The translations under genes and the position numbers were made by a program. Below the pieces are notes generated by a model, which worked only from the letters and a program-made list of their open reading frames with translations, made no database searches and was not told the DNA's origin. From assembly GCA_002839675.1 (NCBI GenBank), contig PGYM01000003.1, positions 186,001 to 250,000 on the forward strand: a stretch of DNA of 64,000 bases. Reading direction: 5' to 3'. The stretch comes from Methanomicrobiales archaeon HGW-Methanomicrobiales-1 (GTDB lineage Archaea > Halobacteriota > Methanomicrobia > Methanomicrobiales > Methanospirillaceae). Positions 5,519 through 48,473 of this stretch are shown here, piece after piece (the stretch's first letter is position 1; every line of letters begins with the position of its first letter).

Positions 5519-5523
5519 GGTGA

Positions 5524-10536: not shown

Positions 10537-10756
10537 AGTGTTCGAAATTACTTTTGTGCAGGTAACTGTATTAGCCCTTTGTTTTGCGAATGAACCGGAT
10601 GTTGCAGGTTTGAAATAACCTGAAAAGGATTGAATTATCTTCCTTTGGAAAAATGCAATGCACCTGGAATAATAAAATCAGAAAATCAGGGTTTTAATCC
10701 CTTCGGGTGATCACGGAACCTTATGAACGGGCATCGGTAACCCCTTGCAGGGTGAA

Positions 10757-10990: not shown

Positions 10991-11060
10991 GGCAGACTTT
11001 CTCTGACTTTTCAGGAATTTTGATGGGCGATTGGATTTATGGCGGAGATCAACAAAAAAA

Positions 11061-11804: not shown

Positions 11805-12001
11805 TTTTTACACAACCCTGTATCCGGCATGTGCACGGATATCTGCTTTTTAAGATCCTCTGAAGTGCTTCTGCCGGAATTATTCTAGGGGAGTATTGAG
11901 CTATTCAGATTGAATACCCTTCGCAGAAAAACCAATAAAAATGTGTCCTGTCAGGAGCAAAGATCATCATACCTTTATGGTTGTGAGAAAAAGTGAGTAC
12001 T

Positions 12002-16673: not shown

Positions 16674-16694
16674 TACTAAAAAAATAAGAAAATT

Positions 16695-18161: not shown

Positions 18162-18244
18162 TAATGTCCACCCGGTACTCACGTAACCAGATATCCCATT
18201 GTGAGTTACCTTAATGTTTTTATCTGCTCTTTATTAGAGGTATT

Positions 18245-18261
18245 GGGAGTGCATCACTATT
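18245..18261 (+). promoter_or_regulatory. Ribosome binding site and probable AUU start of carS
   Basis: GGGAGTG at 18245-18251 is followed, 7 nt later, by ATT at 18259 in the carS frame. No ATG, GTG or in-frame TTG exists between the upstream TAG (18235) and TTG at 18286. The GTG inside the site is out of frame and meets a stop after four codons. An AUU start gives about 17 residues before LPAYI, as in other CarS proteins. Confidence 0.5.
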
Positions 18262-18807
18262 AGCATCGATTTCTTCATAATACCGTTGCTTTCAGCGGTC
18301 TGGATTATGCTTCCTGCGTATATCCCTAATCCGATCGCCGCTCTTCTTGGAGGAGGCACTCCAGTTGATTTTGGAAGGAATTACTCTGATGGACGCAGGA
18401 TATTTGGGGATGGTAAAACGTTCCGTGGCCTGTTTTTTGGCGTGCTTGCCGGTATAATCACGGGTTTGCTGCTCATGTGGCTCTCTGCGACATATCCCTT
18501 AACATTCCTGCCACAACACACCCTGGCATCGATATCACTTCTTGCTCTTGGGGCGTTGTTAGGTGATCTGGGTAAGAGTTTTCTCAAGCGCAGGATGGGA
18601 AAAGTGCGGGGTGAAAAGTGGCCGGTTGCAGATCAGCTTGACCTTGTTGCGGGTGCATTTATCTTAATGCTCCTGTTCGATCCCGGGTGGCTTTTTGCAT
18701 ACATTACCCTACCCATTCTTATCATCATCCTGATCCTAACCATTATTCTTCACCGGGCAGTCAATATTATCGGATATATAATGGGAGTCAAGGAGGTACC
18801 ATGGTGA
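18259..18807 (+). CDS. carS: CDP-archaeol synthase
   Basis: CarS transfers CMP from CTP to unsaturated archaetidic acid, the activation step of archaeal phospholipid synthesis, in the membrane. The signature LPAYIPNPIAALLGGGTPVDFG, the GDGKTFRG motif, KRRMGKVRGEKWPVADQLD and several hydrophobic helices match the family. Starting at the ATT (18259) gives 182 residues; starting at TTG (18286) gives 173 and shortens the first helix. The 3' end overlaps pyrE by 7 bp, making carS the first gene of carS-pyrE-purD-argF. The tetraether synthase candidate is divergently transcribed 97 bp away. Confidence 0.92.
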   Translation: MSIDFFIIPLLSAVWIMLPAYIPNPIAALLGGGTPVDFGRNYSDGRRIFGDGKTFRGLFFGVLAGIITGLLLMWLSATYPLTFLPQHTLASISLLALGALLGDLGKSFLKRRMGKVRGEKWPVADQLDLVAGAFILMLLFDPGWLFAYITLPILIIILILTIILHRAVNIIGYIMGVKEVPW

Positions 18808-19328
18808 ATTCTGTAGCAGATCTTCTCATACAGTACAAGGCAATTGAAATAGGAGATTTTACCCTTGCGAGCGGTGCAAAAAGCACCTACTATATTGATG
18901 TGAAAACTGCAGTTACGCATCCCGATCTGCTTACGATTATTGCAAAACTTATTGCACAATCGCATGAATTCGAGGTTGTTGCCGGCGTTGCTGTCGGGGG
19001 TGTTCCACTTGCGGTTGCAACGGCACTCTCAGCAAAAAAGCCCTATGCGATCATCCGGGCCGCAGAGAAAAGTCATGGAAAGAAAGAGATGATCATCGGG
19101 AACGTCCGGAATAAACGGGTCCTCCTGGTTGAAGATGTGACAACCTCCGGCGGGTCCGCGCTGTACGGTATTGAAACCCTTCGCGCAGCAGGGGCGCACG
19201 CGGACCGTGTCGTTACTGTTGTAGACCGGGAACAGGGGGCTGAAGCGATGCTCACTAAAAAAGGTATTGAGTTCCTGCCGCTCGTCCGGGTGAGCGAACT
19301 GTTAAAAGAGAAGCAATTTTTACCGTAA
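18801..19328 (+). CDS. pyrE: Orotate phosphoribosyltransferase
   Basis: PyrE (175 residues) joins orotate and PRPP to form OMP. The PRPP-binding motif [14 protein letters not shown] is intact, as are the N-terminal [16 protein letters not shown] and [10 protein letters not shown] segments. AGGAGGT at 18791-18797 is a strong ribosome binding site for the ATG at 18801, inside the end of carS, which indicates coupled translation. Confidence 0.96.
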
Positions 19329-19341
19329 ACGTACATTAGAG

Positions 19342-20634
19342 ATGGATATGAAGATCCTTGTTGTGGGCGGGGGAGGAAGGGAGCATGCAATAGCATCTGC
19401 ACTCGCCCGCAACCGAAAAACTGTAATATATTCTGTGATGGCAAAGAAAAATCCGGGGATCTCAAAACTCGCAGAAAAGGTCCTGCTCTGCAGGGAAACA
19501 GACATACCCCGCATTATAGCCTTCGCACTGGAGAACGGTATCGAATATGCTTTTATCGGTCCCGAAGCCCCGCTTGAGGCCGGTATTGTTGATGCATTGG
19601 AAGCTGCCGGTATAGCCTGTGTAGGTCCCTCCAGGGCCGCTGCACGGATTGAGACAGACAAAGGATTCTGCCGCGGGCTGATGGAACAGCACCAGATTGA
19701 GGGGTGCCCGAAGTATAGGCTCTGCCAGAACAGCAGCGAAGCGATCGCGTTTATCAATGGCCACGATGGCGATCTGGTCATAAAACCGGTCGGGCTCACC
19801 GGAGGAAAGGGCGTAAAGATCATGGGCGAACAGGTGGACCGGGCAGGTGCAATCGCCTATGCAGGGCAGATCAAGGGGGAGATCATTCTCGAAGAGCGTC
19901 TTATAGGGGAGGAATTCACGCTTCAGGCCTTTGTCGATGGAATCTCCCTTATACCTATGCCTCTTGTTCAGGATCACAAGCGGGCATTTGACGGGGACAC
20001 CGGACCTAACACCGGTGGCATGGGTTCGTATACTATGCCTGACCATATGCTGCCCTTTGTAACAAACGCAGATTATAAAAAGGCGTTTAATATTATGCAG
20101 GCAACTGTTGAAGCACTGGCGAGAACCGGAACTTCCTATAAAGGCATCCTTTACGGTCAGTTCATGAACACTGCAAAAGGCCCGAAAGTGATAGAATTCA
20201 ATGCCCGGTTCGGCGATCCCGAAGCAATGAATGTCCTGTCACTGCTCACCTCAGACCTGTCGGAAATCATGGTGAACATTGCACGCGGGACGCTCAGCCC
20301 TGCCCATGTCACGTTCGAAAAGAAAGCAACGGTCTGCAAATACCTGGTACCGGAAGGTTATCCCGATGCCCCTCATGCCGGGGACTTGCTCCATGTAGGT
20401 GATACAGACGGGGCAATCACCTATTATGCAAATGTCGAAGAACGTGATGGGTCGCTGGTCACCCTGACTTCCCGCACTCTGGCGTTTATAGGAATTGGCT
20501 CTACGTTGGAAGATGCCGAACGTATTGCAGAGCATGCAGCAGCATCCGTCAAGGGTTGTGTGAGATACCGGAAAGACATCGGAACAGAGAACTTACTCAG
20601 CCAGCGTATCGCACACATGAAGGAGTTACGATGA
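19342..20634 (+). CDS. purD: Phosphoribosylamine-glycine ligase
   Basis: PurD (430 residues) is the ATP-grasp enzyme forming GAR in purine synthesis. It shows the N-terminal [17 protein letters not shown], the ATP-binding [12 protein letters not shown], and the family stretch NTGGMGSYT with [14 protein letters not shown]. The ATG lies 13 bp after pyrE; a second in-frame ATG at 19348 is possible. Its TGA overlaps the argF ATG (ATGA). Confidence 0.96.
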
Positions 20635-21542
20635 ATAAGGATTTTCTATCAATTCTGGATATCAGCAAAACCGAGCTGGAGCAGATACTATCTGAAGCAA
20701 AACATCTCAAGACGTTGAAGAAACAGGGAGTGGTTCACGACGTCCTCCGCGGGAAAAATCTCGCTATGATCTTTGAGAAGTCATCTACCCGGACCCATAT
20801 CTCGTTTGAAGTGGGTATGAACGAACTGGGTGGCCACGCATTGTTTTTGAATGCCCGGGATATGCAGATCTGGCGGGGCGAGGAGATACGGGACACTGCA
20901 CGGGCAGCATCCCGTTATGTATCCGGCATAATGATCAGGGCCTATAAACACAGCACCATCGAAGAATTTGCCCGGTTTGCAACCATTCCTGTCATAAATG
21001 GTCTCTCTGATCTTGAGCATCCCTGCCAGTTACTTGCAGATATTATGACCATGGAGGAGCATTTCGGCTCAACGCAGGATCTGCGTGTAGCCTGGGTTGG
21101 CGATGGGAATAATGTCTGCAATTCACTGATCCTCTCCACGGTACTCACCGGGTATTCTGTTACCGTGGCGACTCCGGATGGGTACGAACCCTCAGCAGAT
21201 ATCGTGACAAAAGCACGCGCACTTGGCGGAAAAGTGAACCTGGTGAAAAGTCCCGAGCAGGCAGTAAAAGATGCACACATCATTGTTACGGATACATGGG
21301 TATCTATGGGTGATGACGCAGAACGGGAAGAACGCTTAAAGGTTTTTTCCCCCTATACCGTAGACGCCGGCCTCATGCGACATGCATCACCGGATGCACG
21401 GGTGCTGCACTGTCTTCCTGCACACCGGGGCGAGGAGATTGCTGATGAAGTGATGGAAGGCGGCCAGAGTCTGGTGTGGGATGAGGCCGAAAACCGGCTG
21501 CATGCACAGAAAGCATTGCTTGTGCGTCTGCTGAAAAAATAA
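20631..21542 (+). CDS. argF: Ornithine carbamoyltransferase
   Basis: ArgF (303 residues) makes citrulline from ornithine and carbamoyl phosphate. The carbamoyl-phosphate motif SSTRT is at 51-55 and the ornithine/catalytic [10 protein letters not shown] is near the C-terminus. The Arg-X-X-X-SMG loop appears as DTWVSMGDD, which favours OTCase over aspartate carbamoyltransferase. The start overlaps the purD stop and has GGAG 6 nt upstream. argG and carAB lie 2-9 kb away. Confidence 0.96.
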
Positions 21543-30031: not shown

Positions 30032-30529
30032 ATGGGAACTCAAGGAAGGAAAATTGTTGATACCGATGTTGACGAGCTGGTTAAGCTCCTGAACAAGGCT
30101 TTTTCTGATGAATGGCTAGCATACTACCAGTACTGGGTTGGTTCTAAGGTAGTACGTGGTCCCAACAAGGAGGCAGTTATTGCTGAACTCACCCTCCACG
30201 CAACCGAAGAACTCGGGCATGCGGTCCTGCTCACGACCCGGATTATCCAACTCGGTGGAACTCCGGTTACCAATCCCCAGCAATGGTTCAAACTCACCAA
30301 CTGCGGATATGATGCACCTGACGATCCGTTTATCATCAAGGTGCTGGAACAGAATATCAAGGGCGAGCAGTGCGCCATCAAGACTTACAACAGCCTGCTG
30401 AAAAAGACCCGGGACAAAGATCCGGTTACCTACAACATCGTTCTGGGCATCCTCCAGATGGAAGTCGAGCATGAAGAAGATCTTCAGGCACTGCTCGAAG
30501 ATGTCAACATCATTATGAAAAACAAATAA
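30032..30529 (+). CDS. Ferritin-like diiron protein (bacterioferritin/Dps-like)
   Basis: This is a four-helix protein of 165 residues. Diiron ligands fit the ferritin pattern: Glu27 (SDEW), Glu60-x-x-His63 (EELGH), Glu112 (KGEQC) and Glu144-x-x-His147 (EVEH). It likely oxidises and stores iron or removes peroxide, which suits a strict anaerobe under oxidative stress. It stands alone behind a promoter with an inverted repeat, next to thiol-redox genes. Whether it forms a 24-mer or a 12-mer cannot be told. Confidence 0.92.
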   Translation: MGTQGRKIVDTDVDELVKLLNKAFSDEWLAYYQYWVGSKVVRGPNKEAVIAELTLHATEELGHAVLLTTRIIQLGGTPVTNPQQWFKLTNCGYDAPDDPFIIKVLEQNIKGEQCAIKTYNSLLKKTRDKDPVTYNIVLGILQMEVEHEEDLQALLEDVNIIMKNK

Positions 30530-30740
30530 ATTTTACCTCTTTTTTAAGAAGTATTTTTTCGTAAAACTTCCGGAAACCTGATTCGGGGAGAATTTGAGGT
30601 AAAATTGCTTTTTTTATCTGATGGGGATCACCCGGAAAACAAGGTCTCCGTTATACACGTGATGAAGCCTGATCTCATCCCAACCTCATTTTTAAATACT
30701 ATTTACCGCTATTTCCCTTTAGTGAATGGAGACTTTTTGT

Positions 30741-31019
30741 ATGAGTATTGAACACGTGAGCGGGAAAAAGAAAGGAACGGTGATGCTCTACGCACTGAGC
30801 ACCTGTGGGTGGTGCAATAAGACCAAGGAGCTCCTGCGTGAGCTTGGCATTGAATTCGATTACACGTATGTCGATCTCCTTGAAGGAAAAGAGCAGGATG
30901 AGGCCATGAATATTGTCGAGCGTTTTAATCCTTCAGGCTCGTTTCCTACCCTTGTTATCAATGAGAAAAAATGTATTGTAGGATTCAAAGAGCAGGAAAT
31001 ACGGCAGGAGTTCCGATAA
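30741..31019 (+). CDS. Glutaredoxin-like protein
   Basis: This thioredoxin-fold protein has 92 residues from the ATG at 30741, which has GGAG about 9 nt upstream; the ATG at 30726 has no such site. The redox motif CGWC is at 22-25 and the cis-Pro loop is SFPTLVI. The stop is immediately followed by the start of the ferredoxin:disulfide reductase, so the two are co-translated. The reductase probably reduces this protein. Confidence 0.92.
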   Translation: MSIEHVSGKKKGTVMLYALSTCGWCNKTKELLRELGIEFDYTYVDLLEGKEQDEAMNIVERFNPSGSFPTLVINEKKCIVGFKEQEIRQEFR

Positions 31020-31541
31020 ATGCCACTTATTGAGATCAAACCAGAAGATGTGGAAGCGACCTACCAAATCCTGCAGAAAGAGGCAAAAGAGGGAGGTTAC
31101 CTGCTGAATCCGGATGCAGAGTTCACCAAAAATCTCATTACCGGTCTTATGAAAAATGAGCGGCGGTACGGGTATCGTGCCTGCCCGTGCCGGCTCGCTT
31201 CCGGAAAAAAGGCAGAGGATCTCGACATCATCTGTCCCTGCGATTACCGGGATCCGGATCTCAATGCATTCGATACCTGTTACTGCGCTCTCTATGTAAG
31301 TGACGATATTGCAAACGGCAGGAAAAAAATACAACCCGTTCCCGAACGCCGCCCGCCACGCTCTGTCCGGGCAAAAACCGCTGCTACCCATACGGTCCCC
31401 CTCGCAAAAGTCCCTGCCCCCGTTCTTTCATTTCCGGTATGGCGCTGTAAAGTGTGCGGCTACCTTTGTGCGCGGGATCAACCCCCGGAGATCTGCCCGA
31501 TCTGCAAAGTAACGAAAGACCGGTTCGAACGGTTCATGTAA
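31020..31541 (+). CDS. Ferredoxin:disulfide reductase, FTR catalytic domain fused to rubredoxin
   Basis: This is a protein of 173 residues. The N-terminal domain has the FTR catalytic pattern CPC (55-57), CPC (72-74) and CYC (87-89), which binds a [4Fe-4S] cluster beside a redox disulfide. After a basic/Pro linker (about 105-138) comes a rubredoxin-like domain with CKVCGYLC (143-150) and CPIC (159-162). This fusion matches the ferredoxin:disulfide reductase known from Methanosarcina. It abuts the glutaredoxin gene with no spacer, so electrons likely run ferredoxin to reductase to glutaredoxin. Confidence 0.92.
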   Translation: MPLIEIKPEDVEATYQILQKEAKEGGYLLNPDAEFTKNLITGLMKNERRYGYRACPCRLASGKKAEDLDIICPCDYRDPDLNAFDTCYCALYVSDDIANGRKKIQPVPERRPPRSVRAKTAATHTVPLAKVPAPVLSFPVWRCKVCGYLCARDQPPEICPICKVTKDRFERFM

Positions 31542-31590
31542 CCCCCATTTTTACAAAAATCCAGATCATTTTTTGCAGTTTCCCAATCCT

Positions 31591-31600
31591 CATATAATGC
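31591..31600 (+). promoter_or_regulatory. TATA-like element for the Cys-rich thioredoxin-like gene
   Basis: CATATAATGC is centred about 26 nt before the ATG at 31621, which has no ribosome binding site. This fits a leaderless transcript and decides the start in favour of 31621 over 31573 or 31597. Confidence 0.45.
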
Positions 31601-31620
31601 CGCTTCCCAATAGTACCCCT

Positions 31621-31959
31621 ATGGCAGGCCCCATAACAATCGAGATTATTGGTCTGAAAGATTCTGAATGCTGCCCGTTTCCCTGCGATGAGAACCGGAC
31701 CTGTGGACTTTCTGACTGTTATCCAACAGGCAAGCTTACCGCAGCATTCGATGCACTGGCAGCAGAACTCAAAAAAGAGTATGGCGACCGGGTGGAGCTG
31801 AAACTCACGCTGGTTGATGGCGGTGTACCGGATTATGTGAAGAAAATTGTCGAGACCGATTTCCCGCCATTACCCATCGTTATGGTGAATGGGAAACTCA
31901 CCCGTATCGGGCGTATAGTTCTTGACCGGATAAAAAAAGAGATTGATGCTGTTTGCTGA
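31621..31959 (+). CDS. Cys-rich thioredoxin-fold protein, unknown function
   Basis: This is a protein of 112 residues. Five Cys lie within residues 17-33 (CC, then C22, C28, C33) and one more is at the penultimate position of the C-terminus. The rest resembles a thioredoxin fold: a long helix (ALAAELKKEYGDRVELKL) and a cis-Pro-like PPLPIVMVNGKLTRIG. The Cys cluster is too dense for a simple CxxC site and may bind metal or hold two disulfides. It follows the glutaredoxin/reductase pair by 80 bp on the same strand. Confidence 0.75.
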   Translation: MAGPITIEIIGLKDSECCPFPCDENRTCGLSDCYPTGKLTAAFDALAAELKKEYGDRVELKLTLVDGGVPDYVKKIVETDFPPLPIVMVNGKLTRIGRIVLDRIKKEIDAVC

Positions 31960-31962
31960 CGT

Positions 31963-32544
31963 TCAGGTAACCCGGGTCAGTGCTCCGTTTCCGAGATCAT
32001 AGTAGAGCCCGTGTACCTGTATCCTCTTCTCATCAACCGCTTTTTTCAGCAGTGGGTAAGTATAGAGGTGTTCGATCTGGAGCCTCACGTTCTCTTGTTC
32101 AATCTGGCGGTACCTCTCCTCCTTTTCAAGCACGGTTGTCGGTGGCGTGATCTTTTTGTCCACCCGCTCTTTTGCCTCGCGGGCATTGTTCAGCCAGAGT
32201 GGTATGTACGAATCAGTACTCTCTTTGTCGAGTGCCCGGATTGCACCGCAGTTCGAGTGCCCGCAGATGACTACATCCTCAACCTTGAGGTGAACAACGG
32301 CATACTCAAGCACGGTAGCAAAATTCCAGTCATGGATCGGCACGATATTGCCGATATTTCTCTGGATGAACAGTTCTCCCGCCCGTGCCTGGGTGATATG
32401 CCCGGTCTGGAGCCGGGAGTCCGAGCACCCTATCCATAATGTTGTCGGATGCTGACTCGATGCCAGCTCGCGGTAGTAATCGATATTCGGGGTAAAATCA
32501 GATTCCCTGAACTTAAAATTTCCCAGCAATAATTTGTCTATCAT
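31963..32544 (-). CDS. Beta-class carbonic anhydrase
   Basis: This protein of 193 residues interconverts CO2 and bicarbonate. Zinc ligands are Cys40, His96 and Cys99, with the Asp42-Arg44 dyad in CSDSR and the HSNCGA motif. No signal peptide is seen, so it is cytoplasmic. Its stop is 3 bp from the convergent stop of the Cys-rich protein. It may supply bicarbonate to carbamoyl-phosphate synthase and carboxylases. No N-terminal membrane or fusion domain is present. Confidence 0.95.
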   Translation of the reverse strand: MIDKLLLGNFKFRESDFTPNIDYYRELASSQHPTTLWIGCSDSRLQTGHITQARAGELFIQRNIGNIVPIHDWNFATVLEYAVVHLKVEDVVICGHSNCGAIRALDKESTDSYIPLWLNNAREAKERVDKKITPPTTVLEKEERYRQIEQENVRLQIEHLYTYPLLKKAVDEKRIQVHGLYYDLGNGALTRVT

Positions 32545-33751: not shown

Positions 33752-35698
33752 ATGATTGCTGAACTGTTCTCCCTAACCATCATCGTGCTTCTTGCCGGCA
33801 CTATCTTTCCCCTTCTCTTAGCCTCGTCAGACCGGAGATCCGTACGCACGATTTCCCTGTCCTGCGTAATCATCGCATCCCTTCTGCTGGCGTGCTTTTC
33901 CCTTCTGACCCTGCTCTCCGGCAGAACAGAACATTTAACGCTCTACCAACCCCTCCCCGGGTTCTCCTTCTCGTTTGTTATCGATCGGCTCGCTTCATTT
34001 TTCCTGCTTATCATTGCGGTCGTATCGGCGTGTGTTTCCCTCTACTTTACTGAATATATCGAGCATATGGACGGGCAGTCCCGCAGGAACCTGCTCTGCG
34101 GTTGTACCAGTCTCTTTATTCTCGCAATGGTGCTTGTCGTTGCCTCGGCAAACACGCTCTCGTTCTTCTTTTCCTGGGAACTGATGGCGGTGAGTTCATT
34201 CTTCCTCGTCATGTACGAGTATTCGCAACCTGAATCAAGGAAAGCAGGGATCTTTTATTTTTTGCTGACCCAGTTGTCATCCCTGTTTATCCTGCTGGGA
34301 ATAATTACGCTCTTCATCCAGACGGGTTCGTTTGCGATCACCCCTTTGTCAACAGCATCGACTCCTCTCATTACCGTTGCATTCCTTGCACTTTTCATTG
34401 GTTTTTCCATAAAGGCAGGAATCATCCCGTTCCACAAGTGGTTGCCGTATGCCCACCCGGCAAGCCCGTCACCGATTTCCGCTCTCATGTCCGCCGTGAT
34501 GCTCAAGATCGCCGTCTATGGGCTGATTCGTTTCCTGCTGGATGTGTTCACGCCGGATCTCTGGTGGGGTGTGCTGATCCTTGCCGCGGGCACGGCATCG
34601 GCGGTTCTTGGCATTATCTATGCGTTAAAAGAGCATGATGTCAAGGGAATGCTCGCCTATTCGAGCATAGAAAATATCGGGATTATCTTCACCGGCATTG
34701 GGTTGTCCGTGATCTTTACTGCCCTTAATCTTCACGATCTCGCAACCCTCAGCCTGCTGGGTGCGCTTTTCCATTCGCTCAACCATTCCCTGTTTAAGAG
34801 CCTGCTTTTCCTCACCGCGGGTTCCGTCGTATCTGCAACCGGTACGCGGGATATCGAGCACATGGGAGGACTAGCCCAACGGATGCCGGTCACCTCTGCG
34901 CTCTTTTTTATCGGCGCAGTTTCGATAACTGCATTACCCCCCTTAAACGGGTTTGCCAGCGAGCTCCTGATCTTCATCTCGTTCTTCTCATCATCTTTTA
35001 CGGTGCTCGAACCGCTGCTTAAAGTTCTCCTGTTTATCTGCCTTGCCCTGTTCGCACTGACCAGTGCTCTTTCCGCAGCATGTTTTGTCAAGGCATTCGG
35101 GTCGATCTTCCTTGCCCTACCCCGTTCCCCGGAGAGTGCCGCTGCCCGTGAAGTTCCCCGTGCCATGCTGATCGGACCCGGCATTCTTGCAGCTGCCTGC
35201 ATACTCCTCGGCGTATGTGCTCTCCAGATCTTTGCATTCGTCGGCTTTGCAGTTCCCCTGCCGGATATGCTGCTGGTCAGCCTGCTTCTCGGGGGCATGG
35301 CGGTGTTTACCTATGCAGTACTGTATTTCACCGCCTCCCGCGAGGTACGGGTGAGTGAGACTTGGGGATGCGGGACACTCTCGCAGCAGGCATCGGCAGA
35401 ATACAGCGGTCATGGGTTCTCAGAACCCCTCGACATCATCTTCTCGTCCATTTACCGCACGCGGACAACCAATGAACGGACGTTCTATGACCAGAAGAAC
35501 TGCATATTCAAGGAAGGTAAAGGGGAGATCCGTCTCCTGAAGGTATTTGAAGAATATCTTTACCGTCCTCTCGCACAGCAATCCATGCGGGTTGCGGGCA
35601 GGGTATCGCGTTTCCAGAACGGGTGTCTTGACACGTATCTCCTCTATGTCTTTATCACCGTCATTGCTGTGATCCTGTTCCTTGGGTGGTTTGCATGA
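33752..35698 (+). CDS. hyfB: Proton-pumping antiporter-like subunit, HyfB/NuoL type
   Basis: This 648-residue, highly hydrophobic protein has about 14-16 membrane helices and the Proton_antipo_M domain. Residues needed for ion translocation in the family are kept: Glu in FSWELMAVSS and Lys in IKAGIIPFHKWLPYAHP. It is the first gene of a six-gene operon with ATGA overlaps between the membrane subunits. GGGAGAG lies about 7 nt before the ATG. It resembles hydrogenase-4 subunit B and complex I NuoL/M. Ion specificity (proton or sodium) is not evident. Confidence 0.93.
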   Translation: MIAELFSLTIIVLLAGTIFPLLLASSDRRSVRTISLSCVIIASLLLACFSLLTLLSGRTEHLTLYQPLPGFSFSFVIDRLASFFLLIIAVVSACVSLYFTEYIEHMDGQSRRNLLCGCTSLFILAMVLVVASANTLSFFFSWELMAVSSFFLVMYEYSQPESRKAGIFYFLLTQLSSLFILLGIITLFIQTGSFAITPLSTASTPLITVAFLALFIGFSIKAGIIPFHKWLPYAHPASPSPISALMSAVMLKIAVYGLIRFLLDVFTPDLWWGVLILAAGTASAVLGIIYALKEHDVKGMLAYSSIENIGIIFTGIGLSVIFTALNLHDLATLSLLGALFHSLNHSLFKSLLFLTAGSVVSATGTRDIEHMGGLAQRMPVTSALFFIGAVSITALPPLNGFASELLIFISFFSSSFTVLEPLLKVLLFICLALFALTSALSAACFVKAFGSIFLALPRSPESAAAREVPRAMLIGPGILAAACILLGVCALQIFAFVGFAVPLPDMLLVSLLLGGMAVFTYAVLYFTASREVRVSETWGCGTLSQQASAEYSGHGFSEPLDIIFSSIYRTRTTNERTFYDQKNCIFKEGKGEIRLLKVFEEYLYRPLAQQSMRVAGRVSRFQNGCLDTYLLYVFITVIAVILFLGWFA

Positions 35699-36636
35699 AC
35701 GCCGATTTCTTCATCTATCTCGTGATCAATACGCTCATCGTTATCGCAGTCTCGCCCCTCTTTGTCAGCCTGATCAAAAAGGTGAAGGCCTGGACGCAGG
35801 GGCGGCAGGGCCCATCCATTTTTCAGACCTACTTTACGCTGATGAAACTGCTGAAAAAGGAAGTCATCTACTCTCCCAATTCATCGCGGATCATGCGGGT
35901 CACCCCGCTTGTCACGATGGCGGCGATCCTTGTTGCCGCACTTTTTGTCCCGCTGGTCTTCGTGCCTGAACCGGTGGGAGGTATCGGTAACATCATTCTC
36001 TTCCTGTACCTGCTTGTCCTTGCCCGCTTCTTTATGGCGCTCGCCGGCCTGGATGCCGGCAGTGCTTTCGGGGGTATGGGCAGTTCGCGGGAGATGAGTA
36101 TATCTTCCATTATCGAACCCACTACCATCATCGTCTTTGCTGCGCTTGCGTTCGTCTTTAAGACTCTCAATATCTTTGATATGTTTACCCTCAATGTATC
36201 TGCCGGATCGCCCTCCCCATCAACACAAATCCTGATCGGTATCTCGTTATTTATTATCATTATCGTAGAGACCTCGCGGATACCGGTCGACAACCCTGAG
36301 ACGCATCTTGAACTCACCATGATCCACGAGGGTATGATTCTCGAGCAGTCGGGCAGGAACTTAGCCCTGATGGAACTCTCCGCAGCCGTCAAGATGACCG
36401 TTCTCATGGCGCTCCTCATCAACCTGCTCGTGCCGTTTGGTCTCATGACCACCCTGACCCTTACCGGGCTCCTTATTGCGCTGGTCGTTTTCGTGGTAAA
36501 AGGATCGATCCTTGCCGGGATCATCGGGCTCTTTGAATCGTCAATGGCAAAGAAACGGTTCTTCCAGCTCCCCAGCCTGTTTGCCATGGCGTTCTTCTTC
36601 TCGACCCTGATCATCATCATCGAGGTGTTCTCATGA
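35695..36636 (+). CDS. hyfC: Membrane anchor subunit, HyfC/NuoH type
   Basis: This protein of 313 residues has about eight membrane helices. The conserved cytoplasmic loop ETSRIPVDNPETHLELTMIHE, which contacts the catalytic subunits in complex I and group 4 hydrogenases, is fully kept, as is the N-terminal KAWTQGRQGPSIFQTYFTLMKLLKKE. The ATG overlaps the upstream stop (ATGA). It should couple the peripheral subunits to the pump. Confidence 0.93.
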   Translation: MNADFFIYLVINTLIVIAVSPLFVSLIKKVKAWTQGRQGPSIFQTYFTLMKLLKKEVIYSPNSSRIMRVTPLVTMAAILVAALFVPLVFVPEPVGGIGNIILFLYLLVLARFFMALAGLDAGSAFGGMGSSREMSISSIIEPTTIIVFAALAFVFKTLNIFDMFTLNVSAGSPSPSTQILIGISLFIIIIVETSRIPVDNPETHLELTMIHEGMILEQSGRNLALMELSAAVKMTVLMALLINLLVPFGLMTTLTLTGLLIALVVFVVKGSILAGIIGLFESSMAKKRFFQLPSLFAMAFFFSTLIIIIEVFS

Positions 36637-37328
36637 TCGACACCGCAATCGTCGTCGGGATCATCAGGATCCTGTTTGTATGCATCATCATTACGGCAGC
36701 CTACATCATCTCGACACGTAACCTGCTCTCCGTAGTGTCCGTCTATGCCCTCCAGAGTCTCACTCTTGTCGGTATCGCGCTTGCGCTCTGGTCACTGGAG
36801 GGATCCCTGGTTCTCCTGGCGATTGCCGGGGTCACGTTTGTCAGCAAGGTTCTCATCATCCCGTACTTCATTGCCACCATCCAGGAAAAGATCCGGATCA
36901 AGCGGGATATCGAGTTCCATTACCTGAATCCCACAACCTCGCTGCTCATCTCGATGGCACTGATGCTGGTGATCTACATGGCGCTCGAAACAATCCTTAA
37001 AGATACACCCGCCTGGGACAACAGCCTCTTTTTCTTTGGCGCAGTGCTGGGGATCTCGCTGATGCTGATGGGCATGATGGTCACGTTCAGCCGCAAGAGG
37101 GCTATTACCAAGGTCTTAGGATTCCTCTCTATGGAAAACGGTGTGCTCCTCTTTGGTATGTTTGTCACCGAGCTCCCGTTCATCATCGAGTTTTTGATCG
37201 TCATTGACCTGATCATCGTCGTAATCCTGACGGCGATATTATCGGTAGGTATCGATTCGACCCTTGAAGATTACCATAAGCGTCTCCACCGTTTCCACCT
37301 CCTGGAAGAGGAGGAGGATGTCGCATGA
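36633..37328 (+). CDS. hyfE: Membrane subunit HyfE (NuoK-like)
   Basis: This protein of 231 residues has about seven hydrophobic helices. The C-terminal half contains a NuoK-like segment (FLSMENGVLLFGMFVTELPFIIEFLIVIDLI), whose intramembrane Glu residues are expected to take part in ion transfer. The start overlaps hyfC (ATGA), and the stop overlaps the next ATG. HyfE is specific to hydrogenase-4-like complexes and not found in complex I, which helps to classify the operon. Confidence 0.92.
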   Translation: MIDTAIVVGIIRILFVCIIITAAYIISTRNLLSVVSVYALQSLTLVGIALALWSLEGSLVLLAIAGVTFVSKVLIIPYFIATIQEKIRIKRDIEFHYLNPTTSLLISMALMLVIYMALETILKDTPAWDNSLFFFGAVLGISLMLMGMMVTFSRKRAITKVLGFLSMENGVLLFGMFVTELPFIIEFLIVIDLIIVVILTAILSVGIDSTLEDYHKRLHRFHLLEEEEDVA

Positions 37329-38806
37329 TCCTGATTGCCTTTGTCCTGGTATCGGTGCTCTCGCTGGTTATCATTGCAGCTACCCGGAACCACCGGCAGA
37401 TGAACACCGTGTGCATCTCCCAGGCACTGATCTTTGCCGCGCTCGCTGTCTACATCGCACTCTTCGAGCAGGTGCCGGTGGTGTCGTTTCTTGTCGGAAG
37501 CCAGTATTTCTTTATCGATCACCTCGGGCTTTTTGAAGTGCTGATCGCAACAATCATCTTTGCCTGCGCTGCGGTCTATGCCCGGGGGTATATCGGAGGA
37601 CTTCTTGAGAGCGGGGAACTGGAAAAAGGCAGTCTCAAGCTCTTCTATGCGGCATGGGTTTTGCTCCTTCTGGTCATTGTCCTTGCATTCTGTTCTGATA
37701 ATCTCGCACTCTTCTGGATCTTTGCTGAAATGACCACCATCATCTCTGCAATGCTCATTGCCATCCTTTCTGCCCGCGAGAACATCGATGCAGCGATCAA
37801 GTATATCTTCGTGGCTTCGGTTTCCATGCTCTTTGCGTTTGTCGGGTTCATCTTCCTCTTCGAGATATCGCGGGTCTATATTGGCACCGGTACCCTGAAC
37901 TGGACCGTGCTCATGCAGCATGCTGCTGGATTTTCCCCCGGCATGATGATCGCTTCCTTCGCGCTCGTCTTTATCGGGTTTGCTGCAAAGTCCGGTATAT
38001 TCCCGTTCCATACCTGGCTGCCGGAAGCCCATGCGAAAGCCCCGTCAGCGGTGAGTGCTATTCTCTCCGGTGTACTGCTGAACGTGGGTATCTACGGGAT
38101 TATCCGCATGTATGCGATTGTGCACCAGACAACCGCTGTTGCTACCATTGCGCCGATGATTGCGGTGTTTGGGATCCTTACGATTGGCATTGCCGCCTTC
38201 TCCATGATACCCCAGAAAAACTTAAAAAAACTGGTGGCATTCTCCAGCGTGGAGAACATGGGGATCATGCTCGTGGGTCTTGCCATCTCCACGCCGGTTG
38301 CGCTCTTCTGGGTGCTCTTCCACATCATGGCACATTCCCTGACCAAGGCCTCGCTCTTCTTCTCTTCCGGTATCCTGCACCGGCAGTACCGGAGCCGGTT
38401 CTCGAGTGATGCAGCGGATGAGATTAAGGATGTATTCCGGCTTCAGCCGCTGGCTGCATGGGGAATTATTCTGGGCGGGCTCGCGATCATTGGTATGCCC
38501 CCGTTTCCCATCTTCTTCTCAGAATTTTTCATCATGCTCCAGCTGGGTGCCATCTCCCTCTGGGTGCTTGCGGTGATACTTGTCCTGCTGTTCATCGCGG
38601 CGGCGGCGCTGGGATACTTCGTACTCACGACATTCACGCAGGTTTCTGAACCGGAATCACTGTCAGATATTATTCCCTACCAGACTCCCGCCAGCATGAA
38701 GATTCCCATCATCTTCCTGCTTGCACTCCTTCTCCTTGTCGGTATTGTTCTCCCTGCCGGTGGTATGGAGTTCCTCAACCAGATTGTAACGGAGCTGAAA
38801 TTCTGA
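37325..38806 (+). CDS. hyfF: Proton-pumping antiporter-like subunit, HyfF type
   Basis: This 493-residue, second antiporter-like subunit has about 14 helices. Key residues are kept: Glu in FWIFAEMTTI and Lys in AAKSGIFPFHTWLPEAHAKAPS. The GHS-type helix bundle with VAFSSVENMGIM and HIMAHSLTKASLFFSSG is family-typical. The start overlaps hyfE, and the last base of the stop is shared with the next ATG. Two pump subunits suggest sizeable ion translocation or ion-driven work. Confidence 0.93.
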   Translation: MILIAFVLVSVLSLVIIAATRNHRQMNTVCISQALIFAALAVYIALFEQVPVVSFLVGSQYFFIDHLGLFEVLIATIIFACAAVYARGYIGGLLESGELEKGSLKLFYAAWVLLLLVIVLAFCSDNLALFWIFAEMTTIISAMLIAILSARENIDAAIKYIFVASVSMLFAFVGFIFLFEISRVYIGTGTLNWTVLMQHAAGFSPGMMIASFALVFIGFAAKSGIFPFHTWLPEAHAKAPSAVSAILSGVLLNVGIYGIIRMYAIVHQTTAVATIAPMIAVFGILTIGIAAFSMIPQKNLKKLVAFSSVENMGIMLVGLAISTPVALFWVLFHIMAHSLTKASLFFSSGILHRQYRSRFSSDAADEIKDVFRLQPLAAWGIILGGLAIIGMPPFPIFFSEFFIMLQLGAISLWVLAVILVLLFIAAAALGYFVLTTFTQVSEPESLSDIIPYQTPASMKIPIIFLLALLLLVGIVLPAGGMEFLNQIVTELKF

Positions 38807-40386
38807 TGACTCCAGACAATGATATCGGGATACGGGCAGTACAGGAATTTCTTGGTGAGGCTGCCCTCGGTGATCGGCTCAGCCACGGGCCCAATAATGA
38901 ACAGTATGTACTCATCGAAGAAGCAGAATTCGAAACGGCGGTATCGCACCTTGCTGCCAACAAGTTCGTGTTGATCAGCCTCTTCTGCTGTGAAGGCTTT
39001 TCCAGCAACGCTGCGCACACCCTCTTTTACGTGTTTGAACGGCGAACCAGCATTCTGGTGCTGGTCCGTAATGTCAGCGGACGTGCAACCTCCATTGCCT
39101 GCATCTATCCGTCGGCTTGCTGGTTCGAACGGGAGTGTCGTGACGGGTTTGGTGTGGAGTTTGACGGAGCCTTTGATACCCGTCGGCTCTTCCTGCACGA
39201 GACCTATCCGGAAGGGTTCCACCCGCTGAAGAAATCGTTCAGGAATGCGCCTGTTGTCACCCGGGCGACTATTGATCCCTCTGAAGAATACCCGTTCCGG
39301 CAGGTGAGCGGTGAAGGGGTATACCAGGTGCCAGTCGGCCCGGTGCATGCAGGAATCATTGAGCCCGGGCACTTCCGGTTCAGCGTGATAGGCGAGACGA
39401 TCTTCAACCTCGAGTGCCGGATGTTTTACAAGCACCGGGGTATCGAGAAACTGGCAGAAGGAAAACTACCCCGGGAATGTCTCGGGATTGCTGAGGCAGT
39501 GAGCGGTGATGAATCGGTGGCAAATGCAACCGCGTTCTGCATGGCAATCGAGCAGATATCCCGTATTCAGGTTCCTGAACGGGCATGGTACCTGCGGACA
39601 ATCCTTCTTGAACTGGAGCGGATCCACTCGCACTTAGGGGACCAGGCAGGGATGCTCGTGGACGTGGCGTTCCCGCTGGGCGCCAACCAGTTTTCGGTGC
39701 TGCGTGAAGAATGTTTCCGCGAAAATGACCGCCTTACCGGTTCACGGTTCCTGCGAAATATGGTCTCTGTTGGCGGGTTGAGCCGGGATATTGCAAAACC
39801 AGATCTCGACGAACTCGCTGTATTTGTGCACCGGGCACGGAAAGGGTACAAGGTAGGGCTGAAGATTGTGCTCTCTACCGCATCGGTAATCGACCGGTTT
39901 GCAACTACCGGAGTGATCCGCCCGGCCCTGCTGCGCCCGCTCAATATTACCGGCCCGGCAGCACGTGCTTCCGGCGGGAAGGTAGATGTCCGGCTGAATC
40001 ACCCGTACGGTATCTACGAACAGTTCGCTCCCAAGCCACAACGGCTCCGGGATGGGGATGTCCTCTCCCGGTTTACGGTCAAGGCATCGGAGATCATGGA
40101 CTCGTTTGACCTGATCGAACGACTGATCGCAGCAATGCCTGAGGGAGAAATCGGCACAACGCCTGTGATCCATGACGGTTACACCCTAGCGCAGGTGGAA
40201 TCTGCCCGGGGCCAGAACCTCTGCTGGGTCTGGATCAAGGGCGGCGTAATCGAGCGGTACAAGGTCCGGACTGCTTCGTTCTGCAACTGGCTGGCACTCG
40301 AACATGCAGTTCAGGGGAACATCGTCCCGGATTTCCCGGTGATCAACAAGAGCCTGAATCTCTCGTACGCGGGAACAGACCTGTGA
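38806..40386 (+). CDS. Hydrogenase-4-like large subunit (NuoC-NuoD fusion) lacking all NiFe ligands
   Basis: This protein of 526 residues has a 30-kDa (NuoC-like) domain at 1-160 fused to a 49-kDa/NiFe large-subunit fold at about 170-526. In active group 4 hydrogenases the metal is held by ERICGIC and a C-terminal DPCxxC. Here the first site reads EAVSGDE (Ser233, Glu236) and the second SLNLSYAGTDL (Ser520, Gly523). All four Cys are gone although flanking residues align well (RGIEKLAEGK, ERIHSHLGDQ, VDVRLNHPYG). It cannot bind a NiFe centre and resembles the Ehr class of complexes. The frame is intact, so the gene is not decaying. Confidence 0.9.
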   Translation: MTPDNDIGIRAVQEFLGEAALGDRLSHGPNNEQYVLIEEAEFETAVSHLAANKFVLISLFCCEGFSSNAAHTLFYVFERRTSILVLVRNVSGRATSIACIYPSACWFERECRDGFGVEFDGAFDTRRLFLHETYPEGFHPLKKSFRNAPVVTRATIDPSEEYPFRQVSGEGVYQVPVGPVHAGIIEPGHFRFSVIGETIFNLECRMFYKHRGIEKLAEGKLPRECLGIAEAVSGDESVANATAFCMAIEQISRIQVPERAWYLRTILLELERIHSHLGDQAGMLVDVAFPLGANQFSVLREECFRENDRLTGSRFLRNMVSVGGLSRDIAKPDLDELAVFVHRARKGYKVGLKIVLSTASVIDRFATTGVIRPALLRPLNITGPAARASGGKVDVRLNHPYGIYEQFAPKPQRLRDGDVLSRFTVKASEIMDSFDLIERLIAAMPEGEIGTTPVIHDGYTLAQVESARGQNLCWVWIKGGVIERYKVRTASFCNWLALEHAVQGNIVPDFPVINKSLNLSYAGTDL

Positions 40387-40397
40387 GGTGAGGAAAA

Positions 40398-40913
40398 ATG
40401 GTAAATGCATTAACCTGCCTGCTGAAAAAGAAAGTGACCGAAGAGGTGCCGGTACGGGATGAAGACTTAGAGATTCTTGGCCGTGCCATAAGGACGGAAA
40501 TCGATGCAGTGTTCGGCCGGAGCCTTGCGATCCGGGAACTGGATACCGGCAGCGACAATGCCACGGAAATTGAGATCAACAATCTCAACAACCCGTTTTA
40601 CGATGTGGAACGTTTCGGTATCTTCTTTGTTGCCTCTCCCCGTCATGCGGATGTCCTTCTCGTGACCGGTGCTGTCACGCACAATATGGCAATCGCAGCA
40701 AGAAAGACCTACGATGCCATGCCGTCTCCCAAGTTTGTAGTCGCCGTTGGCGATGATGCCTGTAATGGCGGGATCTTTGCCGGAACGTATGCAGTCCTTG
40801 GCGGCGCGGAAAAGATATTTCCGGTGGACCTGAAGATACCCGGAAACCCCCCCACGCCGATCCAGATTCTTTCGGGACTGCTTGCATTAATGAAGCAGGC
40901 CCGGGCGCACTGA
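40398..40913 (+). CDS. Hydrogenase-4-like small subunit (NuoB/HyfI type) lacking [4Fe-4S] ligands
   Basis: This protein of 171 residues keeps the NuoB/HyfI fold motifs (EIEINNLNNPFYDVERFGI, VTGAVTHNM, GIFAGTYAVLGG). The usual four cluster cysteines are replaced: SCNGC reads SDNAT (Asp53, Thr56), the third position is Asp120 in VGDDACNGG, and PGCPP reads PGNPP (Asn150). Cys122 is near but not at the canonical third site. The proximal cluster is therefore very unlikely. It starts 11 bp after the large subunit, with GAGGTGAGG upstream, and ends the operon before a T-run at about 40942-40948. Confidence 0.9.
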   Translation: MVNALTCLLKKKVTEEVPVRDEDLEILGRAIRTEIDAVFGRSLAIRELDTGSDNATEIEINNLNNPFYDVERFGIFFVASPRHADVLLVTGAVTHNMAIAARKTYDAMPSPKFVVAVGDDACNGGIFAGTYAVLGGAEKIFPVDLKIPGNPPTPIQILSGLLALMKQARAH

Positions 40914-45536: not shown

Positions 45537-46565
45537 TTATCCGACAATCAGTCGGATCGTGAGAAATGAAACAAACCCTATAAGGGCACTGATCGGGATT
45601 GTAAGTATCCATGCAACCGCGATGCTCCGGGCAACACCCCATTTTACCGTACTTGCGCCCATCGTAGTGCCAACGCCCATGATCGATGTGCAGATGACAT
45701 GTGTAGTACTCACGGGGATACCTGCAACAGACGCCCCGAGAATTGTTGCTGCACCGGCAGTCTCTGCTGCAAAGCCATGAACCGGACGGAGTTTGGTAAT
45801 TTTATAACCCATGGTTTTTACTATCCGCCAGCCGCCGGAAAGAGTGCCCAGGGCAATAGCACCATAGGATACCAGGATCACCCATAAGGGGACCGGAAGA
45901 TGGTTGGGATCAATGGTTGCCCCGAAATACCCGATAGAAAAGAGCAGGGGAAGGATGATACCCATTGTTTTCTGGGCATCATTGGTGCCGTGGCTGAAAC
46001 TGTAGGCTGCCGCAGAACAGAGCTGGAGTTTTCTGAAATGGGATTCTGCTGTTGATTTATGGGCATTCTTGGTGATGTTGAGAACGAGTGCCATGAACAA
46101 AAATCCGATTGCAAAACCAATAAGGGGGGAGAGGATCATAAAGGTCGCGACAAGTTCGACCGTGGACCACTTGATTGCCGCAATACCCGCCGCTGAGATG
46201 CCGGCTCCGACAAGGCCCCCGATCAGGGCATGGGATGATGATGTCGGGAGACCGAAGAACCAGGTGATGAGGTTCCAGACAATGGCGCCCGTGAGTGCAG
46301 CGAGAATAATATAGGGGACCATAACGGTATCGACAATCTCCAGCTGGATGATTTTGGAGATCGTACTTGCAACCGCAACCCCGAATCCGAATGCAGCAAC
46401 AAAGTTAAAAAATGCGGCAAAGACCACTGCATTTCTCGGCGAAAGAACTTTTGTGGAGACGACCGTTGAGATTGAATTGGCTGAATCGTGAAACCCGTTG
46501 GTAAAATCAAAGATCAGCGCGATGACGATGATGGCAATAATCAGGATGAACGGTGCCTCGATCAT
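45537..46565 (-). CDS. PiT family inorganic phosphate transporter (copy 1)
   Basis: This membrane protein of 342 residues has about ten helices. Both PiT signature repeats are present: NGFHDSANSISTVVSTKVLSP near the N-terminus and GANDAQK-type GTNDAQKTMG in the middle. It symports phosphate with H+ or Na+. AAGGAG lies 5 nt before the ATG, and the DUF47 gene lies 28 bp upstream on the same strand. It is the last gene of a duplicated DUF47-PiT module. Confidence 0.94.
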   Translation of the reverse strand: MIEAPFILIIAIIVIALIFDFTNGFHDSANSISTVVSTKVLSPRNAVVFAAFFNFVAAFGFGVAVASTISKIIQLEIVDTVMVPYIILAALTGAIVWNLITWFFGLPTSSSHALIGGLVGAGISAAGIAAIKWSTVELVATFMILSPLIGFAIGFLFMALVLNITKNAHKSTAESHFRKLQLCSAAAYSFSHGTNDAQKTMGIILPLLFSIGYFGATIDPNHLPVPLWVILVSYGAIALGTLSGGWRIVKTMGYKITKLRPVHGFAAETAGAATILGASVAGIPVSTTHVICTSIMGVGTTMGASTVKWGVARSIAVAWILTIPISALIGFVSFLTIRLIVG

Positions 46566-46593
46566 GCAGACTCCTTACTTCTAATTGCGTCCC

Positions 46594-47223
46594 TCATGAG
46601 TGCCGGATCGCGATATCGGACAGCACATTTGCAACATCTTCGCAGTTGTCCGTGGCGGTCTCCAGGTGCTCGTAAATGTCTTTTAATTTGATGATGGTGA
46701 TCGCATCGGTTGTTTTGAACAGGTCGGTCACCGCGTGAGCAAGTGCATCATCCGCGAGATTTTCAAGACGGTTCACTTCAATACACCGTTCTTCGATATA
46801 GCGGGGGTCCTTAATGGAACGGATGCCTTTTACCGCACTCTCGATCTCGACCGTTGACATATGGATCAGTTTTGCCAGCTCGATCATGTGGGAGTCCGTG
46901 CCCTCGATGCCGTAATAGTACATCTTCTCGGTTGCACCATCGATATAGTCCAGCACTTCGTCAAGAGCTGAGGCCAGTTTTGAGATCTCTTCCGGATCAA
47001 TCGGTGTAATGAACGAACTGTTCAGTTGTTCGTAAATATCATGGGTGATCTGGTCTCCCTTGTGTTCAAGTTTCTCGATCGCGTGGCGTTTCTCCTTGAC
47101 ATTGGTGAAATCCTCGGTCAGGGCAACAAGCTGCCATGCCGCCTCCTTTACTACCCCCGCCTGCTTTTCGAACAGGTCGAAAAAAACTTTATCTTTCGGT
47201 ATCAGCAACTCACGAAGACCCAT
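46594..47223 (-). CDS. DUF47/PhoU-like phosphate transport regulator (copy 1)
   Basis: This all-helical, 209-residue protein belongs to the DUF47 family (Pit accessory). Acidic metal-binding motifs of the PhoU fold are seen in KLEHKGDQITHDIYEQL and ALDEVLDYIDGATE. Family members are thought to control PiT transporters. It is paired with PiT copy 1. Copy 2 at 48.5-49.1 kb is clearly similar and identical in length. Confidence 0.92.
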   Translation of the reverse strand: MGLRELLIPKDKVFFDLFEKQAGVVKEAAWQLVALTEDFTNVKEKRHAIEKLEHKGDQITHDIYEQLNSSFITPIDPEEISKLASALDEVLDYIDGATEKMYYYGIEGTDSHMIELAKLIHMSTVEIESAVKGIRSIKDPRYIEERCIEVNRLENLADDALAHAVTDLFKTTDAITIIKLKDIYEHLETATDNCEDVANVLSDIAIRHS

Positions 47224-47282
47224 AACAAACCTACTGGTAATCGGTGGCAGAACCTAAAAAATATAGCGGAATTGTCTGGGCA

Positions 47283-48473
47283 CTAAATGCTTGTCAAAGC
47301 GAAGCTGACGATCTGGTAACCAACCCATGAGACCCCCAGCCCAAGCGGGATAGTGATGACCCATGCCGTCATCATCTCGCGCACAACCTTCCACTGCACA
47401 GCATTCCTGCCCCGCGTGGCTCCTACTCCGATAATTGCTCCGTTGATCGCGTGGGTGGATGAAACGGGTATACCCTGCTGGGTGACCATTACGAGAATGG
47501 CACTGCTGGCAGTTGCTGCACAGAATCCCTGGTACGGCCGGATTTTTGTGATCTCTTTTGCCATCTTATCGATAACCTTCCACCCGCCAAAACAGGTGCC
47601 CAGTCCTATTGCAATGGCTGATGCAAGAATTACCCATGTGGGCACATCGAAGGTTACGAGAAGTCCGGATGAGACCAGCAGTGCGGTAATCACGCCCACT
47701 GCGTGCTGGCCATCATTGGCACCATGGGCGGTTGCCTGCCCGAGGCAGGCGAGTACATGCAGGGGCTGGAAGATACGTTTCGCCCTGCTCTGCCGCGAGT
47801 GTTTGATGAGCTGGGAGACCAGGATGTTAAACAGGAATGCACCCGAAATGCCGAGGAGAGGCGAGATGAAGATGAAGAGCACGATTGCAAGGAGACCCTG
47901 GATCTGGATTACTCCGGCAATCATCAGGAACGGGATGATTATTCCTGCTCCGCAGATTGCTCCTATCTGGATACCCAGCCGGATATCCCCTTCAAACAGT
48001 GCACAGATAACGGCAAGTACCAGGGCCCCGAGAATCGCACCCATTATCGCGAAGAAAAAAACCTGCAATACGGTGTCCATACCAGGAAGGATTATGGCGG
48101 AAAATCCAACCGCCCCGATTCCTGCTCCCAGTAATCCTCCCACCAGTGCATGACTGCTGGAGAGCGGGATTCCCATGCGGGTGGCAACAAAAACCAGAAG
48201 GATCGAAGCTCCCATTGCGACCACAATCGAGAGCGGGGTAAGTGCACTCTGGGTAACGATCGCCGTACCAATGGTCGCTGCAACCGCTGTCGATAAGACA
48301 AATGGCCCGATCATGTTGCAGATCGCAGTGGAGAATACCGCCTTAATCGGTGAGAGCGCTTTTGTAGCTACAACGGTTGCAATCGAATGTGAGGCGTCGT
48401 TGAGACCATTGACAAAGTTGAGAGCCAGCGCAAGGATGATGCCAAACAGGACAATGGGTTCCATGCCGATCAT
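47283..48473 (-). CDS. PiT family inorganic phosphate transporter (copy 2)
   Basis: This protein of 396 residues has about eleven helices and the PiT repeats GLNDASHSIATVVATKALSP and ATAHGANDGQHAVG. It is longer than copy 1 and distinct in sequence, so the two are old duplicates or separate acquisitions. The ATG overlaps the stop of the upstream DUF47 gene (ATGA), showing tight coupling. An ATG three codons later is possible. Confidence 0.94.
   Translation of the reverse strand: MIGMEPIVLFGIILALALNFVNGLNDASHSIATVVATKALSPIKAVFSTAICNMIGPFVLSTAVAATIGTAIVTQSALTPLSIVVAMGASILLVFVATRMGIPLSSSHALVGGLLGAGIGAVGFSAIILPGMDTVLQVFFFAIMGAILGALVLAVICALFEGDIRLGIQIGAICGAGIIIPFLMIAGVIQIQGLLAIVLFIFISPLLGISGAFLFNILVSQLIKHSRQSRAKRIFQPLHVLACLGQATAHGANDGQHAVGVITALLVSSGLLVTFDVPTWVILASAIAIGLGTCFGGWKVIDKMAKEITKIRPYQGFCAATASSAILVMVTQQGIPVSSTHAINGAIIGVGATRGRNAVQWKVVREMMTAWVITIPLGLGVSWVGYQIVSFALTSI

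Follow-up and report, generated by a model that had tools for sequence, protein, structure and literature searches.

Ehr complexes are defined by a large subunit that resembles those of the group 4 [NiFe] hydrogenases without their NiFe cysteines, and by an ehrABCDLS operon that encodes NuoL-, NuoH-, HyfE- and NuoM-like subunits together with the L and S subunits. Examples are known from Geobacter sulfurreducens (GSU0739-45), Nitrospira moscoviensis and Methanospirillum hungatei. In M. hungatei, the ehrABCDLS genes (Mhun_1817-1822) lie near fdh (1813-1814) and a gene for a formate/nitrite-type transporter (1811), and the complex was assigned a ferredoxin-reducing role (PMC4704411). Elsewhere, the function of Ehr has been described as unknown (PMC10432482, PMC10284858, PMC12342949, PMC6147122). 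Most Ehr small subunits have the ligands of a proximal [4Fe-4S] cluster, a feature that stands outside the published definition. The loss of the NiFe ligands in Ehr is already known. Among the papers searched, we found no mention of Fe-S loss in Ehr or of its repeated origin, and the Fe-S-less state described here may thus be new; an earlier mention is possible, and Coppi 2005 or Marreiros 2013 might hold one.

In this study, we analyzed a stretch of 64,000 nucleotides (the window) that carries an ehr operon. By the published criteria the encoded complex is an Ehr complex: the large subunit has no NiFe ligands (S233, E236, S520 and G523 stand in their place), the genes follow the ehrABCDLS layout with all the expected subunit types, and the protein falls in the Ehr clade. 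Kinship with Ehr in a probable methanogen had been proposed in an original prediction made from the sequence alone. This was borne out, since L groups with other Ehr proteins and apart from intact hydrogenases in the phylogenetic tree, and a Methanoregula MAG is its closest relative with a name (70%, with matching neighbor genes). However, the window copy has also lost the proximal cluster ligands of the S subunit. This loss was overlooked in the original prediction, and it is what sets the window complex apart.

The ehr operon and its lost cofactor sites

The operon consists of six overlapping or adjacent genes (33752-40913), as expected from the earlier description of it as intact, and ehrL is the fifth gene. 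The order is NuoL/HyfB-, NuoH/HyfC-, HyfE-, HyfF-, HycE- and NuoB/HycG-like. The features discussed here are as follows.

31963..32544, minus strand: beta-carbonic anhydrase, a divergent upstream neighbor and not a subunit; the sole PF00484 gene of the genome
33146..33631, plus strand: GNAT-like acetyltransferase (identified by eye), the gene just before ehrA and part of its context
33752..35698, plus strand: ehrA, HyfB/NuoL-like antiporter subunit, 648 aa; NCBIfam PRK08667 "hydrogenase membrane subunit", over the cut-off
35686..36636, plus strand: ehrB, NuoH/HyfC-like, 316 aa; Pfam NADHdh, E = 9e-34; the listed start is GTG, with an ATG 9 nt further in
36633..37328, plus strand: ehrC, HyfE-like, 231 aa; NCBIfam "hydrogenase 4 membrane subunit", E = 6e-18, below the cut-off
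37325..38806, plus strand: ehrD, HyfF/NuoM-like antiporter subunit, 493 aa; NCBIfam PRK08676, over the cut-off
38806..40386, plus strand: ehrL, HycE/NuoCD-like large subunit without NiFe ligands, 526 aa
39502..39513, plus strand: codons 233-236 of ehrL (Ser-Gly-Asp-Glu), first CxxC site, by alignment with the genome's own EchE and EhaO-like subunits
40363..40374, plus strand: codons 520-523 of ehrL (Ser-Tyr-Ala-Gly), second CxxC site, by alignment
40398..40913, plus strand: ehrS, NuoB/HycG/MbhJ-like small subunit without [4Fe-4S] ligands, 171 aa; Pfam Oxidored_q6, E = 2e-25

The reading frame of ehrL is open throughout its 526 codons, with neither stop nor frameshift, as had been stated. The N-terminal part of EhrL is NuoC-like and the C-terminal part is NuoD/hydrogenase-like, with profile matches to Complex1_49kDa (E = 1.4e-35) and Complex1_30kDa (6e-16) and a weak match to NiFeSe_Hases (5.6e-6). 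EhrL was aligned with the two intact group 4 large subunits of the same genome, one Ech-like (L001, motifs CGIC...CIGC) and the other Eha-like (L002, CGIC...CVAC). The four NiFe cysteines correspond to Ser233, Glu236, Ser520 and Gly523, exactly the residues and coordinates that had been given. In addition, no CxxC pair has been displaced elsewhere in the protein, and no Cys of the L subunit is conserved across all of the Fe-S-less relatives. Displaced metal ligands are thus ruled out. Because both NiFe-binding CxxC motifs are missing, EhrL is not a member of the group 4 [NiFe] hydrogenases, and [NiFe] hydrogenase activity is impossible for it; the earlier conclusion that the complex does something other than hydrogen chemistry stands. 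At the old metal site, Ser233, Asp235, Ser520 and Gly523 are specific to Ehr, and position 236 is variable across Ehr. The motif DFP...NKS...Y..D around the second site was also considered as a new Ehr site, but it is shared by NiFe-intact relatives and was rejected as part of the scaffold.

In EhrS, all four ligand cysteines of the proximal [4Fe-4S] cluster, the second hallmark of group 4 [NiFe] hydrogenases, are replaced (D53, T56, D120 and N150): the motifs read SDNAT instead of SCNGC, GDDAC instead of GxCAC, and PGNPP instead of PGCPP. These replacements are conserved in the genus, in Methanosarcina and in an Altiarchaeales MAG. Furthermore, there is no ferredoxin subunit among the six genes of the window operon, and in the Fe-S-less group none of the six subunits has a conserved set of Cys that could bind a cluster. 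With neither proximal ligands nor a ferredoxin subunit, no conventional electron path is left. Both proteins are predicted to keep their ancestral type of fold. The AlphaFold2 model of EhrL (pLDDT 89, pTM 0.92) matched HycE best in the PDB (7z0s_E, TM 0.92), followed by Escherichia coli NuoCD, and that of EhrS (pLDDT 92) matched NuoB, HycG and MbhJ (MbhJ, 6cfw_J, TMt 0.88, 2.0 A). The HycE fold for EhrL and the MbhJ fold for EhrS are the ones these models indicate.

The residues of the ion path are conserved in the membrane arm, including E143, K221, H341, H345, K349 and E404 in EhrA, E144, E209 and E220 in EhrB, and E135, K222, H229, K301 and H337 in EhrD, where the terminal position is E400. 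The Glu/Lys/His path and the key NuoH-like Glu are as conserved in the Fe-S-less members as in the Fe-S-containing ones.

Two further positions were noted. At the terminal path position of EhrD (E407 in NuoM), 19 of 21 archaeal Fe-S-less copies have Lys and 58 of 60 Fe-S-containing copies have Glu; the window copy and L078 have Glu, unlike the other archaeal Fe-S-less copies. His207 of EhrB, which is Glu in E. coli NuoH/HyfC, was rejected as an Ehr-specific change, since close relatives with an intact NiFe site have His207 too.

Selection and phylogeny of ehr

The ehr operon is under strong purifying selection. The ehrL gene is present in 24 of the 36 genomes of the genus (62-85% identity); no variation was seen at S233, G234, D235 or E236 in any of the 24 copies, nor at S520 or G523 among the 23 that extend to the C-terminus. 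The dN/dS values against five close relatives were 0.04-0.12 across all six subunits and 0.09-0.11 for L. An orthologue with intact CxxC motifs in a sister species would have pointed to recent decay or sequencing error; none was found among the 36 genus genomes, and both explanations are ruled out by the genus-wide conservation and the dN/dS values. Meanwhile, ehr is absent from 12 of the 36 genomes. An ehrL fragment with a stop adjoins a beta-carbonic anhydrase gene in a genome without intact ehr (G003:C62:18223-19143), which suggests a recent loss of ehr.

The MnhE family was found in 3 of 24 Ehr-bearing genus genomes and in 7 of 12 Ehr-less ones (Fisher, p = 0.007), and there is none in the window genome. 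However, after correction for the tree, the 3 informative pairs, all of them opposite, gave p = 0.25; five genomes have neither Ehr nor MnhE, and some MnhE matches sit in Mbh-type clusters rather than in free Mrp operons. A clean replacement of Mrp by Ehr was therefore rejected, and the anticorrelation is a hint. Free Mrp operons were confirmed in three Ehr-less genomes (G001, G012 and G015) and in two with Ehr (G013 and G014).

To describe the family, 80 named loci and 20 archaeal 20-kb loci were surveyed, and four states were found. The NiFe site, the Fe-S ligands and the ferredoxin module are all intact in L095, L098, L101, L107, L115 and L122. The NiFe site is lost while the Fe-S ligands and ferredoxin are kept, for example, in Methanoperedens L085, L076 and L099. 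The NiFe site and ferredoxin are lost and the proximal cluster is kept in 40 loci. All three are lost in 32 loci, the window among them. A ferredoxin motif in S or in a nearby gene was found in none of the 32 Fe-S-less loci, versus 19 of 59 Fe-S-containing ones. The original prediction had held the clean full set of NiFe ligand losses to be noteworthy. The four losses are real, but they are normal for nearly all Ehr and not distinctive: among 117 Ehr proteins, Ser is found at position 233 in 112, Ser at 520 in 114 and Gly at 523 in 114. The joint absence of NiFe and Fe-S ligands is conserved across Methanoregula-type, Methanosarcina, Altiarchaeales-MAG and other copies.

In the IQ-TREE phylogeny of L, the NiFe-intact sequences are basal, and the NiFe loss across Ehr is thus consistent with one ancestral event. 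In contrast, the proximal Fe-S cluster was lost at least twice. The Fe-S-less sequences fall in two places. One is an archaeal clade (100/96) with Methanosarcina, Micrarchaeota and the window copy, and the other is patescibacterial (97/94); a tree constrained to a single Fe-S-less clade was rejected (p-AU 0.005). Among 380 genomes of one patescibacterial phylum (that of G421), there were 13 matches, 11 of them Fe-S-less by motif.

Two contigs deserve a remark. A Dehalococcoidales-binned contig (L082) carries an archaeal-type Fe-S-less Ehr, through transfer or mis-binning. In an Altiarchaeales MAG contig (L080), the Ehr operon (4880-12046) is followed about 4 kb downstream by the membrane-subunit genes of a second operon (15814-20840).

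Genes adjoining ehr

The beta-carbonic anhydrase gene adjoins ehr, by position, in 12 of the 24 Ehr-bearing genus genomes and in three further archaeal lineages. In 8 of 9 searched Ehr-bearing archaeal genomes with PF00484, every copy of this family lies within about 15 kb of ehr, and the only exception is G270. FdhC and fdhAB genes were found near ehr in L064, L066 and L067, which are Fe-S-less, and in L076, which is Fe-S-containing and belongs to another Ehr clade; FdhC also lies near ehr in L172, L174 and L177. Several methanogens have their only beta-carbonic anhydrase gene beside ehr, often together with a formate transporter, which makes a tie of ehr to CO2, bicarbonate or formate likely. 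However, the carbonic anhydrase gene and fdhC make up a module of their own that is also found without ehr, and the tie may thus be indirect. Furthermore, since the Fe-S-containing Ehr of L076 has the same neighborhood, the cluster loss is not what ties Ehr to the formate genes.

The neighborhood varies among lineages. No PF00484 or PF01226 gene was found in the Methanosarcina genomes searched. In Patescibacteria, the Fe-S-less ehrS closely follows atpC in L096, L109, L125, L179 and L180; in L181 and L188/L132 atpC is in the vicinity, and atpD lies just upstream in L133. A GNAT-like gene is likewise found upstream of ehr in L059, L063, L065, L078, L162-L166, L168, L169, L172 and L174.

Some other genes were observed near ehr. 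In bacteria, genes for SulP-type (possibly bicarbonate/sulfate) transporters are near or directly upstream of Fe-S-containing ehr or a NiFe-intact relative in L106, L115, L124, L135, L141, L148 and L154. In L063, the beta-carbonic anhydrase gene beside ehr is broken by a TAG codon (G016:C1:1493340-1493776). By eye, the window includes a block of ferritin-like, glutaredoxin, ferredoxin-thioredoxin reductase and thioredoxin-like genes (30032-31959), which is kept near ehr genus-wide, and a PhoU-like (DUF47-type) gene between two Pit-like phosphate permeases (45537-48473).

Possible functions and comparison with known systems

As judged from the encoded proteins, conventional electron transfer through the peripheral arm is not possible in the window complex, because there is no NiFe site, there are no Fe-S ligands and there is no ferredoxin. 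We infer that what remains for this architecture to do is to move ions along the conserved path in the membrane. We proposed, with somewhat more belief than doubt, that the complex is a redox-free ion translocator with the complex I fold, probably an H+/cation exchanger gated by the L-S module. Translocation would then proceed without being driven by electron transfer: H+ and cations would be exchanged between the antiporter-type EhrA and EhrD via EhrB and EhrC, and the L-S module would be a redox-dead gate or ligand sensor. The putative binding site is the conserved pocket Ser-Gly-Asp...Asn-Lys-Ser...Ser-Tyr-x-Gly-x-Asp at the old metal site. That this pocket binds bicarbonate, CO2 or formate, with binding or proton chemistry coupled to ion translocation, is a more specific reading that we regard as possible but rather unlikely. 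In the methanogens studied here, the exchange would serve the balance of CO2, bicarbonate, formate and protons; this part of the proposal is less certain, and it was made because beta-carbonic anhydrase and formate-transport genes adjoin ehr. It offers a testable connection of Ehr to the CO2 and formate balance.

The same neighbors also suit a machine coupled to the proton-motive force, in which proton movement in the membrane arm is coupled to a step where CO2, HCO3- or formate is bound, hydrated or transported; carbonic anhydrase and FdhC would be its partners. In Geobacter, Ehr subunits were found at higher abundance on formate than under conditions that included hydrogen (PMC7894505), which agrees with such a machine, as do the clustering of nearly all PF00484 copies around archaeal ehr, the FdhC/fdhAB genes near several Fe-S-less and Fe-S-containing copies, and the SulP-type transporters adjoining ehr in several bacteria. 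However, the Methanosarcina genomes searched lack both gene families, the patescibacterial copies adjoin ATP synthase instead of carbonic anhydrase, and half of the genus copies have their carbonic anhydrase elsewhere. We regard this machine as possible but rather unlikely. The cyanobacterial NDH-1 CO2-uptake and DAB complexes would be its functional analogues.

Could the complex still be a redox enzyme, with electrons passing from formate dehydrogenase or ferredoxin via a non-standard cofactor? Such a path may run through an organic cofactor or through a redox partner whose gene lies elsewhere, fdhAB genes lie near some ehr copies, and both an FDH-Ehr arrangement (PMC6349859) and the ferredoxin-reducing M. 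hungatei Ehr (PMC4704411) have been proposed. However, the lack of any conserved cluster-capable Cys set and the joint disappearance of four proximal ligands, four NiFe ligands and the ferredoxin module make this improbable, and for the Fe-S-less clade the annotation of methanogen Ehr as a hydrogenase that reduces ferredoxin (PMC4704411) is untenable. Least credible of all is a vestigial or decaying complex. The lost ligands, the 12 genomes without ehr and the G003 fragment would suit it, but the low dN/dS, the operons intact in all lineages, the invariant pocket and the long-term retention after two independent Fe-S losses speak against it, and for the window copy it is refuted by the selection data. 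The redox-free exchanger is the reading that we prefer. In its favor are the conserved losses, the low dN/dS, the retained folds and ion path, the repeated Fe-S loss, the carbonic anhydrase and FdhC neighbors, the ATP synthase genes beside patescibacterial Fe-S-less copies and, as a hint, the scarcity of MnhE in Ehr-bearing genus genomes. Methanosarcina, for which genetic methods are well established, is among the carriers of Fe-S-less ehr.

Compared with other Ehr, the window complex has the same A-B-C-D-L-S gene order as that of M. hungatei, the same S-G-D...L-S-Y-x-G replacement of the NiFe ligands, and a place in the same clade of the L tree as that of N. moscoviensis. However, the proximal [4Fe-4S] ligands are present in most Ehr and a ferredoxin module in some, whereas the window clade has neither. 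The subunit types and folds are also like those of the E. coli formate hydrogenlyase and hydrogenase-4 (Hyc and Hyf), but the window operon lacks NiFe, FeS, the HyfA/HyfH ferredoxins, HyfD and formate dehydrogenase. The antiporter-type subunits are homologous to MrpA/MrpD of the Mrp (CPA3) cation/H+ antiporters, and non-redox ion exchange is a proposed analogy; MrpB/E/F/G are missing, and NuoH, NuoCD and NuoB homologues are present instead. A link to CO2 as in the cyanobacterial NDH-1 CO2-uptake forms is a tentative suggestion. The NDH-1 CO2-uptake form and DAB are recognized by a carbonic anhydrase subunit bound to the complex; in the window, the beta-carbonic anhydrase is a neighbor gene and not an operon member.

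With complex I/NDH-1, the window complex shares the path residues of the membrane arm and the NuoCD/NuoB folds. However, it has no NADH module and no N2-type cluster, and no Fe-S chain leads to a quinone site, as the operon has neither Fe-S ligands nor genes for Fe-S subunits. The way in which complex I couples electron transfer to proton pumping is still disputed. A natural relative with a membrane arm and a NuoCD-NuoB arm and without a conventional redox center would allow a direct test of the role of this arm without electrons. If the ligand-coupled reading is true, the pocket could drive the coupling apparatus of complex I, or be driven by it, without redox chemistry.
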